From: Bacteriovoracaceae bacterium | Lineage (GTDB): Bacteria; Bdellovibrionota; Bacteriovoracia; Bacteriovoracales; Bacteriovoracaceae | DNA length: 64,000 nt | Assembly: GCA_016784965.1 (NCBI GenBank) | Contig: JADHTQ010000019.1 | Location: 1-64,000 of the forward strand | Direction: 5' to 3' | Part shown: in pieces, positions 3,404-31,740 of the stretch | Position numbering within the stretch: position 1 is the first letter of the stretch | Layout: each line of letters opens with the position of its first letter | Program-made: the position numbers and the translations under genes | The notes under the pieces: model-generated | Seen by the model: the letters and a program-made list of their open reading frames with translations, nothing else | Told to the model about the DNA's origin: nothing | The model's database searches: none

Positions 3404-4147
3404 ATGAAACAATCTTCACTTGTATTAATCACTGGCCTTTTATTTTTTTTACTTTCATGCGGAGACGGCAAATCCCCAGGAGCTCTACATGGAACCAATT
3501 GGCCTTTGGAGGGTGAGCAGCAGATCTCATTAGCTGAAGCTAAAAACCTCATGAGAGCACACAGTGCAACCTTAAAAAAGGTTCAAGAGGGGATGAGTTA
3601 TTTAAAAACTGGTAGTGGTATGAGCGTTCATAGCTCTCGCGCACAAGGGGAAGCGCAGAGGACTCGGATCGAATGTAATTATAATTACAAAACCACTCAT
3701 ACCATTGTTGAGGTTAACGGTGACAAGTATCTCGATTTGCAAAAAGAAACCAGCATAAACGTTGAAGCCGCATGTAAAAAATACGACGAATTGGACGAAA
3801 AAACCCTATATGAAAAATTGATCAGCAGAGAAATAGACACTGACATTGAAGGTGGTCTAGACCAGCTTCCAAACGTTCCAAGCCTTCAGTTTTATAAAGG
3901 GGTTTTCTCGGGCGAGCAAGTTATTAAGGCACATTTGTCCGTTGTTGGAGACCAGGGGAAAAAGGCCAAAATTACTGTGTTGGTCAGTCTAAACAGATCC
4001 ATGCTTATGAATCCCATGCTTTCAAAAGCAAATATGGGTGGTGTTGAACAAATTAGCTCCATCACTCCGCTTAAACAGGTTGACCCAACAAGCTTGGATT
4101 ATTCTGACCTGACAGTTGTCCCTGTGAAATATTCAGATTCTAATTGA
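3404..4147 (+). CDS. Secreted lipoprotein of unknown function, 247 aa
   Basis: The frame extends upstream to 3362, but the ATG at 3404 follows GGAG (3391-3394) and begins a lipoprotein signal: MKQSSLVLITGLLFFLLSCG, with lipobox LLSC and Cys at about residue 19. The mature part is mostly beta/alpha mixed with two further Cys (in ECNYNY and EAACKKYDE). I recognise no domain. It has its own candidate promoter and converges on the minus-strand gene ending at 4155. It is likely anchored to the outer or inner membrane facing the periplasm. Confidence 0.8.
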   Translation: MKQSSLVLITGLLFFLLSCGDGKSPGALHGTNWPLEGEQQISLAEAKNLMRAHSATLKKVQEGMSYLKTGSGMSVHSSRAQGEAQRTRIECNYNYKTTHTIVEVNGDKYLDLQKETSINVEAACKKYDELDEKTLYEKLISREIDTDIEGGLDQLPNVPSLQFYKGVFSGEQVIKAHLSVVGDQGKKAKITVLVSLNRSMLMNPMLSKANMGGVEQISSITPLKQVDPTSLDYSDLTVVPVKYSDSN

Positions 4148-6347: not shown

Positions 6348-7071
6348 TTAAAGCTCCTGCATCTTTTAAAATATTGATGAGTTCTTCATTTTGTAATTTG
6401 TTTGCTTCTGCAAGTGCTGACTCACCAAGCTCATTTTGATAATTTACATCCACCTTACAAAAAATTAAGCGCTTTACTTCAGCTACATCTTCTTTTTTTG
6501 TGGAATAAATTAAGTAGCGTCCATCAATAGCTAGTTTTTGATCAACAGGCGCTCCAAGAGGTGAAAACAGCTCTACCCCATAAAGTGTTTCAAGTTTTTT
6601 CATCATCTCATTTTCAGCTTGCAAGTCCCCATTTGTTCTGGCAGCAGAGAGCTTTGCAAATGTATCTTTTGCAACAGCATGATAGCTTGCAAAAAGATTC
6701 ATTCCCCGCTGTACATAATCATACTCTGCAAATGGAATTGAAAACTTCTCACCAACCCAAATTGAAGTATCAAAGATTGCAAAGCTATGATACGGATAAA
6801 ACCCATCAAAGGCAGGAAACCCTTCTTCGTCATAAAAATACCACTGAATCTCATCGGCCACATTTGAGTCCTCGTAAGCATCGAGCAACTCTTCACCGGC
6901 CACTTGCACTTCATCGACAAACATATCAATAAAAGGTCCAGGCATTGCCATATCACCAGACTTGGTGCACTCATAGGTTTCATTGGCCAAAATGCCTACA
7001 TTTAACAACATCAAACATGTTACTATCGCTGAAATAAAAAATGTCTTTTTAAGTGTTCTTAGATTTAACAT
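6340..7071 (-). CDS. Secreted protein with a C-terminal ankyrin-like repeat, 243 aa
   Basis: The ATG at 7071 is preferred over the one at 7107 because GGGAG stands just upstream and a signal peptide then follows directly (LKKTFFISAIVTCLMLLNVGILA). The last 35 residues read VDVNYQNELGESALAEANKL then ELINILKDAGA, which matches one ankyrin repeat. The middle part is unknown. It overlaps the next gene (4155-6347) by eight bases, so the pair forms an operon and the proteins may act together in the periplasm. Confidence 0.75.
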   Translation of the reverse strand: MLNLRTLKKTFFISAIVTCLMLLNVGILANETYECTKSGDMAMPGPFIDMFVDEVQVAGEELLDAYEDSNVADEIQWYFYDEEGFPAFDGFYPYHSFAIFDTSIWVGEKFSIPFAEYDYVQRGMNLFASYHAVAKDTFAKLSAARTNGDLQAENEMMKKLETLYGVELFSPLGAPVDQKLAIDGRYLIYSTKKEDVAEVKRLIFCKVDVNYQNELGESALAEANKLQNEELINILKDAGALND

Positions 7072-23594: not shown

Positions 23595-23641
23595 TTTTTG
23601 TTTACCGCCTGTTTTAAAAAAACTGTTTACTGTTACTGTTA

Positions 23642-23746
23642 CTGTTTACGTTAACTGTTCACGTAACCTGTTCACGTAATCTGTTCACGTTAACAGTTTT
23701 CAGTTTACCGTTTTCAGTTTACCGTTTTCAGTTTACCGTTTTACCG
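23642..23746. repeat. Two short tandem arrays: 13-bp unit x4 and 14-bp unit x3
   Basis: CTGTT(C/T)ACGT recurs at 23642, 23655, 23668 and 23681, a 13-bp period. TTTTCAGTTTACCG is then repeated perfectly at 23697, 23711 and 23725, with a partial copy TTTTACCG at 23739-23746. The last partial copy contains the stop codon of the gene ending at 23741, so the array reaches into that gene. Confidence 0.85.
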
Positions 23747-28609: not shown

Positions 28610-28610
28610 T

Positions 28611-28650
28611 GTTACCCATGTCTCCAGAATAAAATGTAACCCATGTCTCG
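28611..28650. repeat. Two direct copies of GT(T/A)ACCCATGTCTC
   Basis: GTTACCCATGTCTCC (28611-28625) and GTAACCCATGTCTCG (28636-28650) stand in tandem. The first matches the right arm of the inverted repeat at 806-819 and its flank. Clustered short terminal repeats of this kind occur at the ends of some insertion sequences, so this may be IS debris; no transposase of that type lies nearby. Confidence 0.55.
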
Positions 28651-28681
28651 GGTTGCACACAATAAACTGAATTCTTTTCAG

Positions 28682-28775
28682 TTCCTGTTCCTGTTCCTGT
28701 TCCTGTTCCTGTTTCAGGTGATCAGGTTTGAAGTGATCATGTTTGAGGTGATCATGTTAGAGGTGATCAGGTTTG
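28682..28775 (-). repeat. Composite repeat, copy 1: (TTCCTG)x5 then four GTGATCA units
   Basis: TTCCTG is repeated five times without interruption (28682-28711). It is followed by units of 14-16 bp around GTGATCA at 28719, 28733, 28749 and 28764, each followed by (G/T)GTT(T/A)G(A). Two other copies, in the opposite orientation, lie at 30030-30120 and 31594-31645. This copy is directly downstream of the RAYT-like transposase gene. Confidence 0.85.
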
Positions 28776-28806
28776 ATGTGTGAAGTTAGCAGTTTGGTGT
28801 TTGAGG

Positions 28807-29388
28807 TTATAGGAGAGAAAGTTGTACTTCCTTTATAGCTGTCTTTTTATAATTCTGTTTTCGTTTGTAGCTATAGGGGGCTTTGCCGAGAAGGACTACA
28901 TCCTCGAACTTCTTCAATGAAGTACCGACACCAATTCTGTTGAGTATCATCCTAGGGATTGACTTACCATCACTCAAGGAACAAAAACGACAATGAAAGG
29001 GATTAATGCCCTTTATCTGGTTTGCAACATAATAAATTGCACGTCTAATTTCTTGAGCAGTAATTTTCACACTACTATAAAATCGATCTGCCCAAAACCT
29101 TCCTTTCCTCTTAAATCTTTTATTAAAATCTCGTGCCATCATCGAAGAAATATACCCGATAGAAAGCGACAGGTTTTTCTCAATGGGAGTTATAATTAAA
29201 AGGTGTATATGCGACTTATGCACGAAGTATTGGGCGACTGTTACACAATACTTTTTCTCAACAACCCCAACAAGCTTTTTAAACAATTTTACACAATGGC
29301 CACTTTGCAGTGAAAACTTAATATCCGTTTTCAAAATACAATGAATGGGAGTCTCTTTTAATACATTTCTTCGAATATGTTTAATCAT
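28807..29388 (-). CDS. REP-associated tyrosine transposase (RAYT / Y1 HUH family), 193 aa
   Basis: The HUH metal motif is HIH at residues 60-62, within VAQYFVHKSHIHLLIITP. The conserved FKRKGRFWADRFYS block (about 92-105) and the catalytic-Tyr helix RAIYYVANQIKG (Tyr about 119/120) follow, in RAYT order. The length is a little above the usual 150-180. RAYTs are single-copy, non-self-mobile relatives of IS200/IS605 transposases that process REP palindromes. Arrays with a TGATCA palindromic core lie within 20 bases downstream and 0.65 kb upstream. Confidence 0.88.
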   Translation of the reverse strand: MIKHIRRNVLKETPIHCILKTDIKFSLQSGHCVKLFKKLVGVVEKKYCVTVAQYFVHKSHIHLLIITPIEKNLSLSIGYISSMMARDFNKRFKRKGRFWADRFYSSVKITAQEIRRAIYYVANQIKGINPFHCRFCSLSDGKSIPRMILNRIGVGTSLKKFEDVVLLGKAPYSYKRKQNYKKTAIKEVQLSLL

Positions 29389-29589
29389 GGGGCTTTATAA
29401 CATACCCCAGAGCAACTATCAAATGTAAGAAAACCCTAAAGCTAATGCAACCCCCCTCTATATCGCCATCCTGGGCCCTGCCTGACACCCTCAATCTCCT
29501 CCTGTCCGCTCTACCCAACATTTTTTTCAAAATAGGTCAACAACGGGCCTTGTGGCCCTTCTTAAGAGATTAAAATAAATCATAAAAAA

Positions 29590-29619
29590 AATATTACACC
29601 GCCCCTCTAACAGGGGCGG
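29590..29619 (-). terminator. Rho-independent terminator overlapping the stop of the four-helix-bundle gene
   Basis: CCGCCCCT (29599-29606) and AGGGGCGG (29612-29619) form a perfect 8-bp stem with a five-base loop. On the minus-strand transcript the stem is followed within eight bases by a U-run. The stop codon of the gene lies in the loop. Confidence 0.75.
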
Positions 29620-29909
29620 CACAGTTTAAAAATGCAAGCACCAACATAACTTGCAAGCTGAATTAACTCTGGATTGGTATTACTAGAAAGATCCAAGATA
29701 GCCTGACATTCACGCAACGAACCCAAGCTAATAGAATAAAACTTCCTTTTATCATTCAAAGTCATCTTCCCAGACCCCTCCGCCAAATTCAGACACACGG
29801 ATGAACTTGCCCTATTCATCTGCTCCTTCAAATGCCTCGGAAGCGATAACCTCTGCGCCCGATGATAAAATTTAACTGAAAGTTGATAAGTCCTAAATTT
29901 CTCCAACAT
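29607..29909 (-). CDS. Four-helix-bundle protein (23S rRNA IVP / S23-like), 100 aa
   Basis: The ATG at 29909 follows GAGGAGAG at five bases. The chain (FRTYQLSVKFYHRAQRLSLP, EQMNRASSSVCLNLAEGSG, FYSISLGSLRECQAILDL) matches the small four-helix-bundle family found in 23S rRNA intervening sequences, next to diversity-generating elements and alone. Cytoplasmic, nucleic-acid-binding by family. Its leader is a 27-bp hairpin that contains the ribosome site, which would block translation unless opened. It lies between copies 1 and 2 of the composite repeat and beside the RAYT gene. Confidence 0.85.
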   Translation of the reverse strand: MLEKFRTYQLSVKFYHRAQRLSLPRHLKEQMNRASSSVCLNLAEGSGKMTLNDKRKFYSISLGSLRECQAILDLSSNTNPELIQLASYVGACIFKLCRPC

Positions 29910-29913
29910 ACTA

Positions 29914-29983
29914 GCTCTCCTCGGTTGGCAATTAATGGGGATTCGCGCGCATGGGGCCCCATTACTTGCCAACCGAGGAGAGC
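29914..29983 (-). repeat. 27-bp near-perfect inverted repeat in the leader of the four-helix-bundle gene
   Basis: Arms 29914-29940 and 29957-29983 pair at 26 of 27 positions, with a 16-base loop containing CGCGCG. Each arm includes CTCTCCTCGGTTGGCAA or its complement. On the minus strand the ribosome site GAGGAG lies in the 3' arm, five bases from the start codon. Confidence 0.92.
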
Positions 29984-30029
29984 GGTCTAGAAACCAAAAA
30001 CCACACAAACTAAAACCCACCCCTAAAAC

Positions 30030-30120
30030 CTGATCACTTCAAACCCGAAAACCTCAACCTGATCACCCAAACATGATCACCCAAACCTGATCACACCAAA
30101 CCTGATCACCAGAAACAGAA
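30030..30120 (+). repeat. Composite repeat, copy 2: five TGATCAC units, then degenerate CAGAAACAG
   Basis: TGATCAC occurs at 30031, 30060, 30074, 30088 and 30103, most 14-15 bases apart, each in the context AAACCTGATCACC. AGAAACAGAACC follows at 30110, a degenerate counterpart of the TTCCTG run. The orientation is opposite to copy 1. Confidence 0.8.
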
Positions 30121-30233
30121 CCAAAAGAAAGTTGAATCTCCTAATTAATATATAGATATGACTTCCCGACCAGTCGCAGCAAAAAACATGCCTCTTTTTA
30201 AAAAAAATGCGTGTAGCAATACTCCAATCGGGA

Positions 30234-30239
30234 TATAAT
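30234..30239 (+). promoter_or_regulatory. Candidate -10 box (TATAAT) for the beta-barrel gene at 30284
   Basis: A consensus TATAAT lies 45 bases before the ATG, with no clear -35 at the right distance. It falls in the gap after the composite repeat. Confidence 0.35.
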
Positions 30240-30283
30240 ATTCTAATAATCATTAACTCTACCCCAAATCTACCGGAGACGAT

Positions 30284-31063
30284 ATGAAGATAATTTTACG
30301 TGTACTGCTCTTATGCATAACCTTGTTTCCTTTGTTGTCTTTACAAGCAACTGCTAAAACGAAAACTCAAACTAAAGTTAAAACCAAAACAAAGGTTAAA
30401 GCCAAAACTAAAACCAAAACTAAAACTAAGGTCAAAGCAAAAACTAAAGCTAAGATGAAAACCAAAGCCGAAAATAGTAAAAAATTCAAATATTTTGCAG
30501 AACCTTACCTTGGTATTGGTCTGGGATCTTTTGATCAGGATCTTGCGATTGAAGGTACTAATGACCAAGGAGTAACACTTGCGCAAACTGGCTCCGAAGG
30601 GGGGGTTGTATTAGGACTAATAGCGGGAACATACCTCGCTGTAAAATACGATCGCTATAGTGTTTTTTTAGATTTAAGGTTAGAGTCTGCAAATTACGAA
30701 GTTATGTCTGTATATACGGATGACTCTACCATCGATGGCCTTTCTATTGCCACAGCTATCAATTTTGCATTCAACCTGAGTGAATCATTTAGAGCTTCAG
30801 TTGGGTATAACTTTTGGGATTACTTAAACTTATCTTACAAGAACGTTTCAAACAAATACTACGGCTCTGGTTTTAAAGGATCTGTGAGTTACCAATTTAG
30901 CAGTGGATACGCATTAAACATTGAGTATTCGGAACATAAATATGACGAAAGAGATGGCCGCGATTTGCCAACAAGTTACTCTTCTGGACAGTTAAATATC
31001 GATGAAGGGCCAATGGATGTTAGCGAGTTATATATCTTTGTAAGTGTTCCGATAAATTTTTAG
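30284..31063 (+). CDS. Outer-membrane beta-barrel candidate with Lys/Thr-repeat head, 259 aa
   Basis: ATG after CGGAG. A signal peptide (about 1-24) is followed by about 40 residues made almost only of K, T, V and A (KTKTQTKVKTKTKVKAK...), then a domain of alternating strands (EPYLGIGLGSFDQDL, GFKGSVSYQFSSGYALNIEY) ending in Phe (SVPINF), as expected for an eight-stranded outer-membrane barrel. The end resembles that of the protein at 39232-39882 (SFPVNF), so both may be one family. The basic head may bind peptidoglycan, LPS or DNA (inference). Next gene 45 bases on. Confidence 0.75.
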   Translation: MKIILRVLLLCITLFPLLSLQATAKTKTQTKVKTKTKVKAKTKTKTKTKVKAKTKAKMKTKAENSKKFKYFAEPYLGIGLGSFDQDLAIEGTNDQGVTLAQTGSEGGVVLGLIAGTYLAVKYDRYSVFLDLRLESANYEVMSVYTDDSTIDGLSIATAINFAFNLSESFRASVGYNFWDYLNLSYKNVSNKYYGSGFKGSVSYQFSSGYALNIEYSEHKYDERDGRDLPTSYSSGQLNIDEGPMDVSELYIFVSVPINF

Positions 31064-31108
31064 TTTTTTAAATTTAATAACTTTAACTTAAAAAGAGGAA
31101 GGTCCTAA

Positions 31109-31582
31109 ATGAATAATAAATATCACACAAATTTTTTACTATTCTTATTATTTTTTCTCTCTGCTTGTTCTATGCTTCCGTCCAAAGAAGAAATGGAAAA
31201 ACAGTTAGTTAATTTTAAGCTTCCAAGCAAACCCAAAAAAAATAAATCCATGATTTATGTTGTTAGACCTAGCGCTCTTGGAGGGTTGATACGCTTCAAC
31301 GTTTTTTTGGATAATAAAAAGGACAGTTCCGAAAAGGGGTGGAATCGATCCATGCAACATATTTATTTTTCAGTAACTCCTGGAAAACATAAAATTTATT
31401 CAAAAGCAGAAAACTGGGCCGAAATTGATATTGAAGTTGCTAAGGGTCAAACCAAGTTTATCAAGCAAAACACAGAATTTGGAATTATTATGGCCCGCAA
31501 TTCATTGGAACACTTAGATGAACTTAATGGAAAATATTATGTTAAAAACACAAGCCAAGGAGAAATTCTAACAAAAAAATGA
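31109..31582 (+). CDS. DUF2846-like lipoprotein, 157 aa
   Basis: The lipoprotein signal NFLLFLLFFLSACS has lipobox LSAC. The mature part, MIYVVRPSALGGLIRFNVFL then YFSVTPGKHKIYSKAEN and IDIEVAKGQTKFIKQ, follows the DUF2846 pattern of a beta-sandwich with a G-x-H turn. Ribosome site AGAGGAAGG. It follows the beta-barrel gene by 45 bases and is probably co-transcribed. Envelope-anchored, function unknown. A third copy of the composite repeat begins just after its stop. Confidence 0.75.
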   Translation: MNNKYHTNFLLFLLFFLSACSMLPSKEEMEKQLVNFKLPSKPKKNKSMIYVVRPSALGGLIRFNVFLDNKKDSSEKGWNRSMQHIYFSVTPGKHKIYSKAENWAEIDIEVAKGQTKFIKQNTEFGIIMARNSLEHLDELNGKYYVKNTSQGEILTKK

Positions 31583-31593
31583 TTTTCAAAACC

Positions 31594-31645
31594 CGACCAC
31601 ACCAAACCTGATCACATCAAACCTGATCACCTCAAACAGGAACAG
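31594..31645 (+). repeat. Composite repeat, copy 3: TGATCAC units then CAGGAACAG
   Basis: CGACCAC (31594, degenerate), TGATCAC (31609) and TGATCAC (31624) are spaced by 15 bases in the context CAAACCTGATCAC. They are followed by AAACAGGAACAG, the complement of the TTCCTG run of copy 1. Same order and orientation as copy 2. Confidence 0.8.
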
Positions 31646-31703
31646 AAACATGCAACAAAAAACAAAAAAATAAAAAAGAAGTACTACCAGAAAACACTAC
31701 AAG

Positions 31704-31740
31704 AAACCAGTACCCGAAACCAGTACCATAAACCAGTACC
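31704..31740. repeat. 13-bp tandem repeat (AAACCAGTACC) x3
   Basis: AAACCAGTACC starts at 31704, 31717 and 31730. It lies between composite repeat copy 3 and the 3' end of the helicase gene. The unit sequence differs from the other arrays but the period is similar. Confidence 0.85.

Follow-up and report, generated by a model that had tools for sequence, protein, structure and literature searches.

The DNA examined, here called the window, comprises positions 1-64,000 of contig JADHTQ010000019.1 from a Bacteriovoracaceae bacterium (assembly GCA_016784965.1). It contains a Y1 transposase gene and an ivp gene, accompanied by short tandem arrays in the following arrangement.

28682..28775, minus strand: array A1, the end of the element 3' of the transposase, with hexamers outside and units inside
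28807..29388, minus strand: Y1 HUH transposase, 193 aa (Pfam PF01797, E=2.9e-10)
29595..29623, minus strand: 12-pair terminator-like hairpin that overlaps the ivp stop codon and has a T run
29607..29909, minus strand: ivp, 100 aa, 23S_rRNA_IVP / four helix bundle protein (PF05635, TIGR02436)
29914..29983, minus strand: near-perfect palindrome of ~70 bp, just upstream of ivp
30025..30120, plus strand: array A2, the end next to the palindrome, with 14-15-bp units followed by AAACAGAACC
31589..31645, plus strand: array A3, a lone copy of the composite seen in A2, in the same orientation
31685..31740, plus strand: array A4, 13-bp unit AAACCAGTACCNN, at the 3' end of a UvrD-type helicase gene

An initial annotation of this DNA had placed three arrays at 28682-28775, 30030-30120 and 31594-31645. 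They are present there with TRF scores of 98, 103 and 70. Forty dinucleotide shuffles of the window gave at most 58 at periods 12-16, which excludes a chance origin and confirms them as real tandem repeats. As the annotation also stated, A1 (minus strand) runs opposite to A2 and A3 (plus strand), and a transposase with an HIH motif lies between the first two. A1 holds four CAAACCTGATCACCT-type units (28719-28775, 15 bp spacing, minus strand), A2 five recognisable units (30025-30110, spacing 14, 15 and 29 bp, plus strand), and A3 two well-preserved units plus a degenerate one (31589-31632, plus strand). The hexamer run ascribed to each locus stands only in part: the junction GATCACCnnAAACAG is common to all three arrays, but a true tract, (TTCCTG)x5 at 28682-28711, exists only in A1, and A2 and A3 carry one or two hexamers only (AAACAGAACC, AAACAGGAACAG). 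A4, the ivp gene and the palindrome were absent from that annotation.

The transposase has the HUH motif (H60-I-H62) and the catalytic tyrosine of the Y1 family (in the context Y120-xx-N123-Q124), and scores above the PF01797 cut-off. In the family alignment H60-I-H62 and Y120 are conserved and Q124 is invariant. The protein had been taken for a REP-associated tyrosine transposase (RAYT), a class that does not fit by the tests applied here: it scores 28.8 bits with the NCBIfam RAYT model (NF047646, REP_Tyr_transpos), whose cut-off is 80. The corresponding IS200 model (NF033573) is not reached either (23.7 against 55 bits). The residue four positions after the tyrosine is presumably diagnostic, with N read as RAYT and Q (YxxNQ) as IS200 TnpA; RAYT-like paralogues from other lineages of this genome have YxxxN, the window transposase has Q there. 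A profile search matches IS200-type TnpA (E 0.0026-0.024), and the top Foldseek matches, obtained with a low-confidence query model (pLDDT 52), are TnpA proteins of IS200/IS605 (IS608/ISDra2). Sequence and predicted fold thus suggest that the transposase is IS200-like, and closest to the IS608/ISDra2 TnpA. Its C-terminal tail ends in VQLSLL, a predicted beta-clamp motif. Y1_Tnp is the only match in Pfam, and a C-terminal HTH was not matched there.

The arrays had likewise been set beside REP palindromes, though as an unusual form. Pattern searches over 4.59 Mb find the exact unit CAAACCTGATCA seven times, six of them in the window, so that it is essentially confined to the three sites, an outcome that the annotation had named as counting against its reading, and a 400-kb genome sample contains no array similar to those of the window. 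The units fold no better than shuffles (z about -1.2), and the array units at paralogous transposase copies lack the TGATCA palindrome. A dispersed REP family is therefore not supported. If the gene were a true RAYT and the arrays its ordinary REP/BIME repeats, a Y1 HUH gene between inverted repeats would be expected, and the locus resembles a REPtron (a RAYT with REP or REPIN sequences) in having a Y1 transposase between inverted intergenic repeats. It differs in lacking a REP hairpin, a dispersed unit family and a score that reaches the RAYT model. With Q in place of N after the tyrosine, a model score below cut-off, and units neither folded nor dispersed, we consider the REP/BIME explanation very improbable.

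The ivp product is well above both family cut-offs (PF05635, 58.1 against 33.8 bits; TIGR02436, 53.7 against 24 bits), and its neighbourhood in the window is protein-coding, which argues against a position inside a 23S rRNA gene. The palindrome folds strongly, both as DNA (-32.7 kcal/mol, z=-8.2) and as RNA (-52.7, z=-7.0), and the ivp Shine-Dalgarno sequence (AGGAG) lies inside its 3' arm, a few nucleotides before the ATG. Identical palindrome sequences are found at loci C48 and C78, and sequence similar to the hairpin at 29595..29623 also occurs at C48 and C94. Intervening sequences of 23S rRNA with S23p/IVP are found in Coxiella and Leptospira, and tandem heptamers precede the S23p ORF in Coxiella (PMC4990558). 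The window locus shares with them the PF05635 family and a long stem adjoining the ORF, and differs in being dispersed and outside rRNA, with a stem that is wholly upstream and holds the Shine-Dalgarno sequence.

Between the mutually inverted A1 and A2 lie the palindrome, ivp and the transposase. Read in the direction of the transposase, the order is G-rich array, palindrome, ivp, spacer, transposase, C-rich array, and because of this inverted order the two arrays are terminal inverted repeats of tandem units. The palindrome lies inside the left end, and no counterpart hairpin is seen at the right end. The G-rich strand carries two-tetrad motifs, but a G-quadruplex role is unsupported.

Three transposase paralogues (73-86% aa identity) occur in the same genome, at loci C48, C94 and C9:96k; the window copy is C51. 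Across paralogous copies the palindrome-ivp-transposase core is ~82% identical in DNA, and homology fades at the arrays, which bound the shared core. The palindrome and the first half of ivp are nearly identical between C51 and C48 and the remainder is ~80% identical; therefore, the copies may have undergone conversion, or parts may have moved separately. Two of the three paralogues also have arrays, built from a different 13-bp unit and located on both sides at C48 and on the right side at C94. The arrays at C48 are mutually inverted, like those at C51, so the element cannot have inserted into a single tandem array that was already there. Neither a target-site duplication nor an empty site came to light. 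Comparison of the copies indicates that the element is small, multi-copy and probably mobile.

The arrays had further been proposed to be substrates of the transposase. Their recurrence at C48 and C94, inverted at the former as in the window, shows that the association with the transposase is not accidental. However, C9:96k, an old transposase copy, and the examined transposase copies in relatives are without arrays, and arrays also occur without the transposase. The palindrome and ivp are found at five further loci of the same genome that lack a transposase, and at four of these (C108, C21, C9:86.8k and C63) an array adjoins the palindrome; the palindrome at C102 has none. Overall, an array lies upstream of seven of the eight palindromes in this genome, compared with 0.57% of 100-bp windows in the 400-kb sample (binomial P=1.5e-15; P=5e-9 for the transposase-less loci alone, four of five). 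This distribution weakens the substrate reading. In its fuller form, the Y1 transposase would recognise the arrays, multiplying or moving them, with each copy having its own unit as in RAYT/REP pairs. This would suit the presence of arrays at the ends of three of the four transposase copies, the use of short DNA sites by Y1 enzymes, and a unit type that differs between copies but is the same at both ends and in the solitary A3 of one locus. Given the transposase-less copies with arrays, the array-less transposase copies, and units that are not dispersed and fold no better than shuffles, we regard it as unlikely.

Among relatives, the palindrome-ivp cassette is dispersed in transposase-free copies. 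Seven IVP matches in genome G021 and 18 in G049 are accompanied by no Y1_Tnp match. Together with the array-bearing cassettes that lack a transposase, these genomes argue that arrays go more closely with the IVP cassette than with the transposase, and the arrays appear to belong mainly to the palindrome-ivp cassette; they are not shown to be transposase targets. The relatives' IVP units (~0.73 kb) are 89-96% alike at different sites, and ivp often occurs as divergent pairs. Strong palindromes adjoin ivp in G015, G021, G038, G022, G018 and G005. Short CAGAAY tracts of varying length are found at the left end of the G021 units, and (GGGCAATC)5 is found upstream of the palindrome in G016; in most relatives arrays are rare next to ivp, and so do not characterise the cassette in general. 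Members of the close transposase family turned up in three genomes only, so that genomes of the same genus could not be compared; a single-protein search of contigs gave no match, and an alignment-based search gave two relatives only.

At C108, C9 and C21 a hexamer array is followed by GTTTGGG, the palindrome and ivp, and C108 and C21 also have an inverted CCCAAAC-hexamer stretch on their far side; C63 lacks the GTTTGGG boundary. The hexamer tract is not specific to the transposase, since it forms an intergenic family of its own, with solitary copies numbering at least about 15. The idea that these hexamer hairpins flank RAYT-like paralogues of other lineages was rejected upon inspection. The arrays may be minisatellites that arose from a (hexamer)n-CAGTTTGGG boundary by tandem amplification of its GTTTGGG part; position and motif point to this origin of the 13-15-bp units, with no traceable series. 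Neutral minisatellites, generated by slippage beside a fork-stalling palindrome and with no role in movement or expression, would explain why unit sequence and length vary between loci (6, 8, 13, 14 and 15 bp), why copy number differs among copies of one element, and why most relatives' palindromes are without arrays. Slippage accounts poorly for the consistent inverted orientation, with the GTTTGGG side toward the palindrome at several loci, for an array at the opposite end of the element, some 1.2 kb away from the palindrome, and for one unit type shared by the two ends of a locus, and we doubt that the arrays are purely neutral.

The explanation we lean towards is a TIRtron-like composite that joins an IVP cassette to an IS200-like transposase and has fast-evolving minisatellites as its ends. 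A1 and A2 would be terminal copies, and A3 a solitary copy, of the element's end sequence, and sameness of the arrays within a locus could be kept by copying between them. The palindrome and ivp also make up a dispersed cassette by themselves, and one lineage in this genome has the transposase in addition. The palindrome would sequester the ivp Shine-Dalgarno sequence, and at the left end of sister copies a hexamer hairpin and its T run would serve as a terminator, so that the cassette would be silent under read-through, following the logic of IS200, where the Shine-Dalgarno sequence is inside a hairpin. Such insulation from read-through is what the analogy suggests. The transposase may be tethered to the replication clamp via its QLxLF-like tail, the predicted motif, and would act on single-stranded ends, for which the palindrome is a likelier hairpin substrate than the arrays.

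TIRtrons (TIRYT) have a RAYT-like Y1 gene with TIRs rather than REPs, and some of these TIRs recur elsewhere in the genome (Di Nocera et al. 2013, PMC3733652; subclass 2.1, Quentin et al. 2018, PMC6006769). A GGGGWSAS motif marks the TIRYT repeats. C51 and C48 are alike in combining a RAYT-like Y1 gene with terminal inverted repeats unrelated to REPs. They differ in that the TIRs are tandem arrays with a unit that changes from copy to copy, ivp and a long palindrome lie inside the element, the transposase has an IS200-type YxxNQ, and the C-terminal HTH, a signature of subclass 2.1, is unmatched in Pfam. With IS200/IS605 the element shares a Y1 HUH transposase of related sequence and fold, a subterminal palindrome, and a Shine-Dalgarno sequence buried in it, comparable to the IS200 hairpin. 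Here, however, the accessory gene is ivp instead of tnpB, the ends carry tandem arrays, the NCBIfam IS200 cut-off is missed, and the C-terminal tail is QLSLF-like, a feature not conserved in TnpA IS200 (Quentin et al., PMC6006769).

More tentatively, the palindrome-ivp cassettes may be a mobile class of their own that encodes no transposase, with the IVP protein and the palindrome as the mobile module; the window lineage would then have acquired a clamp-tethered IS200-like transposase and array ends. A partial coverage of the literature revealed no paper describing palindrome-ivp mobile cassettes. The IVP/S23 proteins of 23S rRNA intervening sequences are long known and, to our knowledge, have no function assigned. 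The occurrence of ivp cassettes with a buried Shine-Dalgarno sequence, in high copy and without a detectable Y1 transposase, makes the mover of IVP elements a testable question. Combined with an IS200-like transposase and minisatellite ends, the cassettes offer a natural case of end units that change in concert.

The initial annotation had placed three arrays around a transposase gene. Its positions were correct, and a fourth array was found, so that the locus is laid out as follows:

28682-28775, tandem array A1
28807-29388, minus strand, transposase
29607-29909, minus strand, ivp
29914-29983, palindrome
30025-30120, tandem array A2
31589-31645, tandem array A3
31685-31740, tandem array A4, unit AAACCAGTACCNN

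TRF-type tandem scores (period 12-16) were 98, 103 and 70 for A1 to A3, and the best of 40 dinucleotide shuffles of the window scored 58. Where the 14-15-bp units meet the hexamer side, A1, A2 and A3 have the junction GATCACCnnAAACAG in common, and the three are therefore copies of one composite. The long hexamer tract is present in A1 only. A further intergenic array, of GTTAACTGTTCAC and TTCAGTTTACCGTT units, lies at 23622-23742; it resembles the hexamer/CAGTTTGGG family and has no adjoining ivp. A predicted secreted protein of no recognised family has a Lys/Thr-rich segment (KTKTKVKAKTK) close to its N-terminus, encoded by a low-complexity AAAACYAAA tract at 30354-30453.

The exact unit CAAACCTGATCA occurs 7 times in the 4.59-Mb assembly, 6 of them inside the window arrays. 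The variant CAAACCGCTCACNC has 33 matches at up to 3 mismatches in the same genome, all at loci C48, C94 and C78 except one at C84, and none in 58 other genomes or in the reversed control. As 400 kb sampled from other stretches of the contigs also contained no 13-15-bp AAACC array, the unit is not a dispersed REP.

The transposase matches Y1_Tnp (PF01797, E=2.9e-10). Its assignment as a RAYT was not borne out, since it scores far under the NCBIfam RAYT cut-off and has the tyrosine motif YxxNQ, as does every family member, in contrast to the YxxxN seen in this genome's RAYT-like genes from other lineages. In profile and fold searches, the latter with a low-confidence model, IS200-type TnpA (IS608, ISDra2) came out on top, ahead of the RAYT structure 4er8. 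The C-terminal linker is variable, but most members end in VQLSLL, IQLSFF, VQLVLF, IQLTLF, MQLSLF or QLSLPF, which fit the beta-clamp consensus QL[SD]LF; some members in genome G019 end in ILPLFP instead. Quentin et al. 2018 (PMC6006769), who cite this consensus, describe it as lacking conservation in TnpA IS200. Clamp binding is predicted. RAYT-like proteins of other lineages (L016, L017, L019, L049, L039) have QLQLN, QIDLF or QLSLL near the N-terminus, which also resemble the clamp motif.

Paralogues with 73-86% amino acid identity are found at C94, C48 and C9. Arrays of 13-bp units lie on both sides of the C48 copy and on the right of the C94 copy; the most diverged copy (C9:96k) has none. 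At C48 and in the window, the arrays are mutually inverted around the core, in identical orientation relative to the genes. Homology between copies spans palindrome, ivp, spacer and transposase, and fades at the arrays. C78 corresponds to the left portion of a copy that is cut by another insertion sequence, presumably IS66 judging from its ORF ends, and C84 is an array next to an end of that insertion sequence. In the window locus, the array type changed in concert at both ends and in A3, suggesting that arrays are copied from one another, either by conversion or in the course of transposition. Paired sequences of about 18 bp, TGTTACCCATGTCTCCGG / TGTAACCCATGTCTCGGG, occur at 28610-28652 of the window, C21:46750-47096, C15:78053-78158 and C81:131620, with few other matches in the genome. 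They directly adjoin three IVP-element loci and one RAYT-like gene, and resemble the ends of an insertion sequence, IS481-like.

Upstream of the transposase, the IVP gene (PF05635) is immediately preceded by the palindrome (DNA folding z-score -8.2), which contains the Shine-Dalgarno sequence. The palindrome is identical in the window, C48 and C78, 78-86% alike at C108, C21, C9:86.8k and C102, and partially matched at C63. Five of the palindrome loci lack a transposase, and in four of these a tandem array lies directly upstream. Overall, an array lies no more than about 100 bp upstream of 7 of the 8 palindromes in this genome; in the 400-kb sample, 0.57% of 100-bp windows touch one. C108, C9 and C21 are all arranged as hexamer array, GTTTGGG, palindrome, ivp; on the far side of ivp, an inverted CCCAAAC-hexamer stretch follows at C108 and C21. 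Hexamer hairpins bearing the same tail also stand alone at scattered places in the genome. Judging from order and motif, the 13-15-bp units may have arisen by amplification of the GTTTGGG boundary; a graded series between the two was missing among the loci compared.

The anatomy suggests insulation of the IS200 type, in which a left-end hairpin with a T run (fold z=-3.8 at C108) would act together with the Shine-Dalgarno sequence buried in the palindrome. In anatomy, the element comes nearest to TIRtrons (PMC3733652), with which it shares flanking TIRs; its accessory gene places it closest to 23S rRNA intervening sequences (PMC4990558), and its protein to IS200/IS605, although its transposase is far under the cut-off of the curated NCBIfam IS200 model. 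It does not fit RAYT or REP features. A partial literature search found no description of ivp, palindrome, Y1 transposase and array ends in combination.

The transposase family has close members in only three of 129 genomes of the class: this genome, G019 and G025. In the latter two, both Oligoflexia MAGs, the gene is multi-copy and its neighbours include neither IVP nor such arrays. In one Oligoflexia MAG sequence (L155, JADGAN01), the noncoding 5' portion of the transposase unit has a second, inverted copy of 399 bp (3608-4006 and 6438-6836, 93% identical), resembling a non-autonomous derivative.

Palindromes adjoin ivp in G015, G021, G038, G022, G018 and G005, and at several sites in relatives divergent ivp pairs have one common palindrome. 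In G016, an imperfect palindrome has (GGGCAATC)5 on its upstream side. Many relatives' contigs end within the palindrome or early ivp (L161-L164, L167-L169, L172, L180-L182), and short-read assemblies therefore probably undercount the cassettes. The IVP units of G021 (about 0.73 kb) are 89-96% alike in differing flanks, with left-end CAGAAY tracts of variable length. Family-model searches of G021 and G049 (99-100% complete) gave 7 and 18 IVP matches, respectively, and no Y1_Tnp match. The initial annotation took the arrays as possible substrates of the transposase, which may use the arrays, the palindrome or neither; the transposase alone cannot explain the arrays, given the cassettes without Y1_Tnp. 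We infer that the palindrome-ivp cassette spreads without a Y1 transposase.
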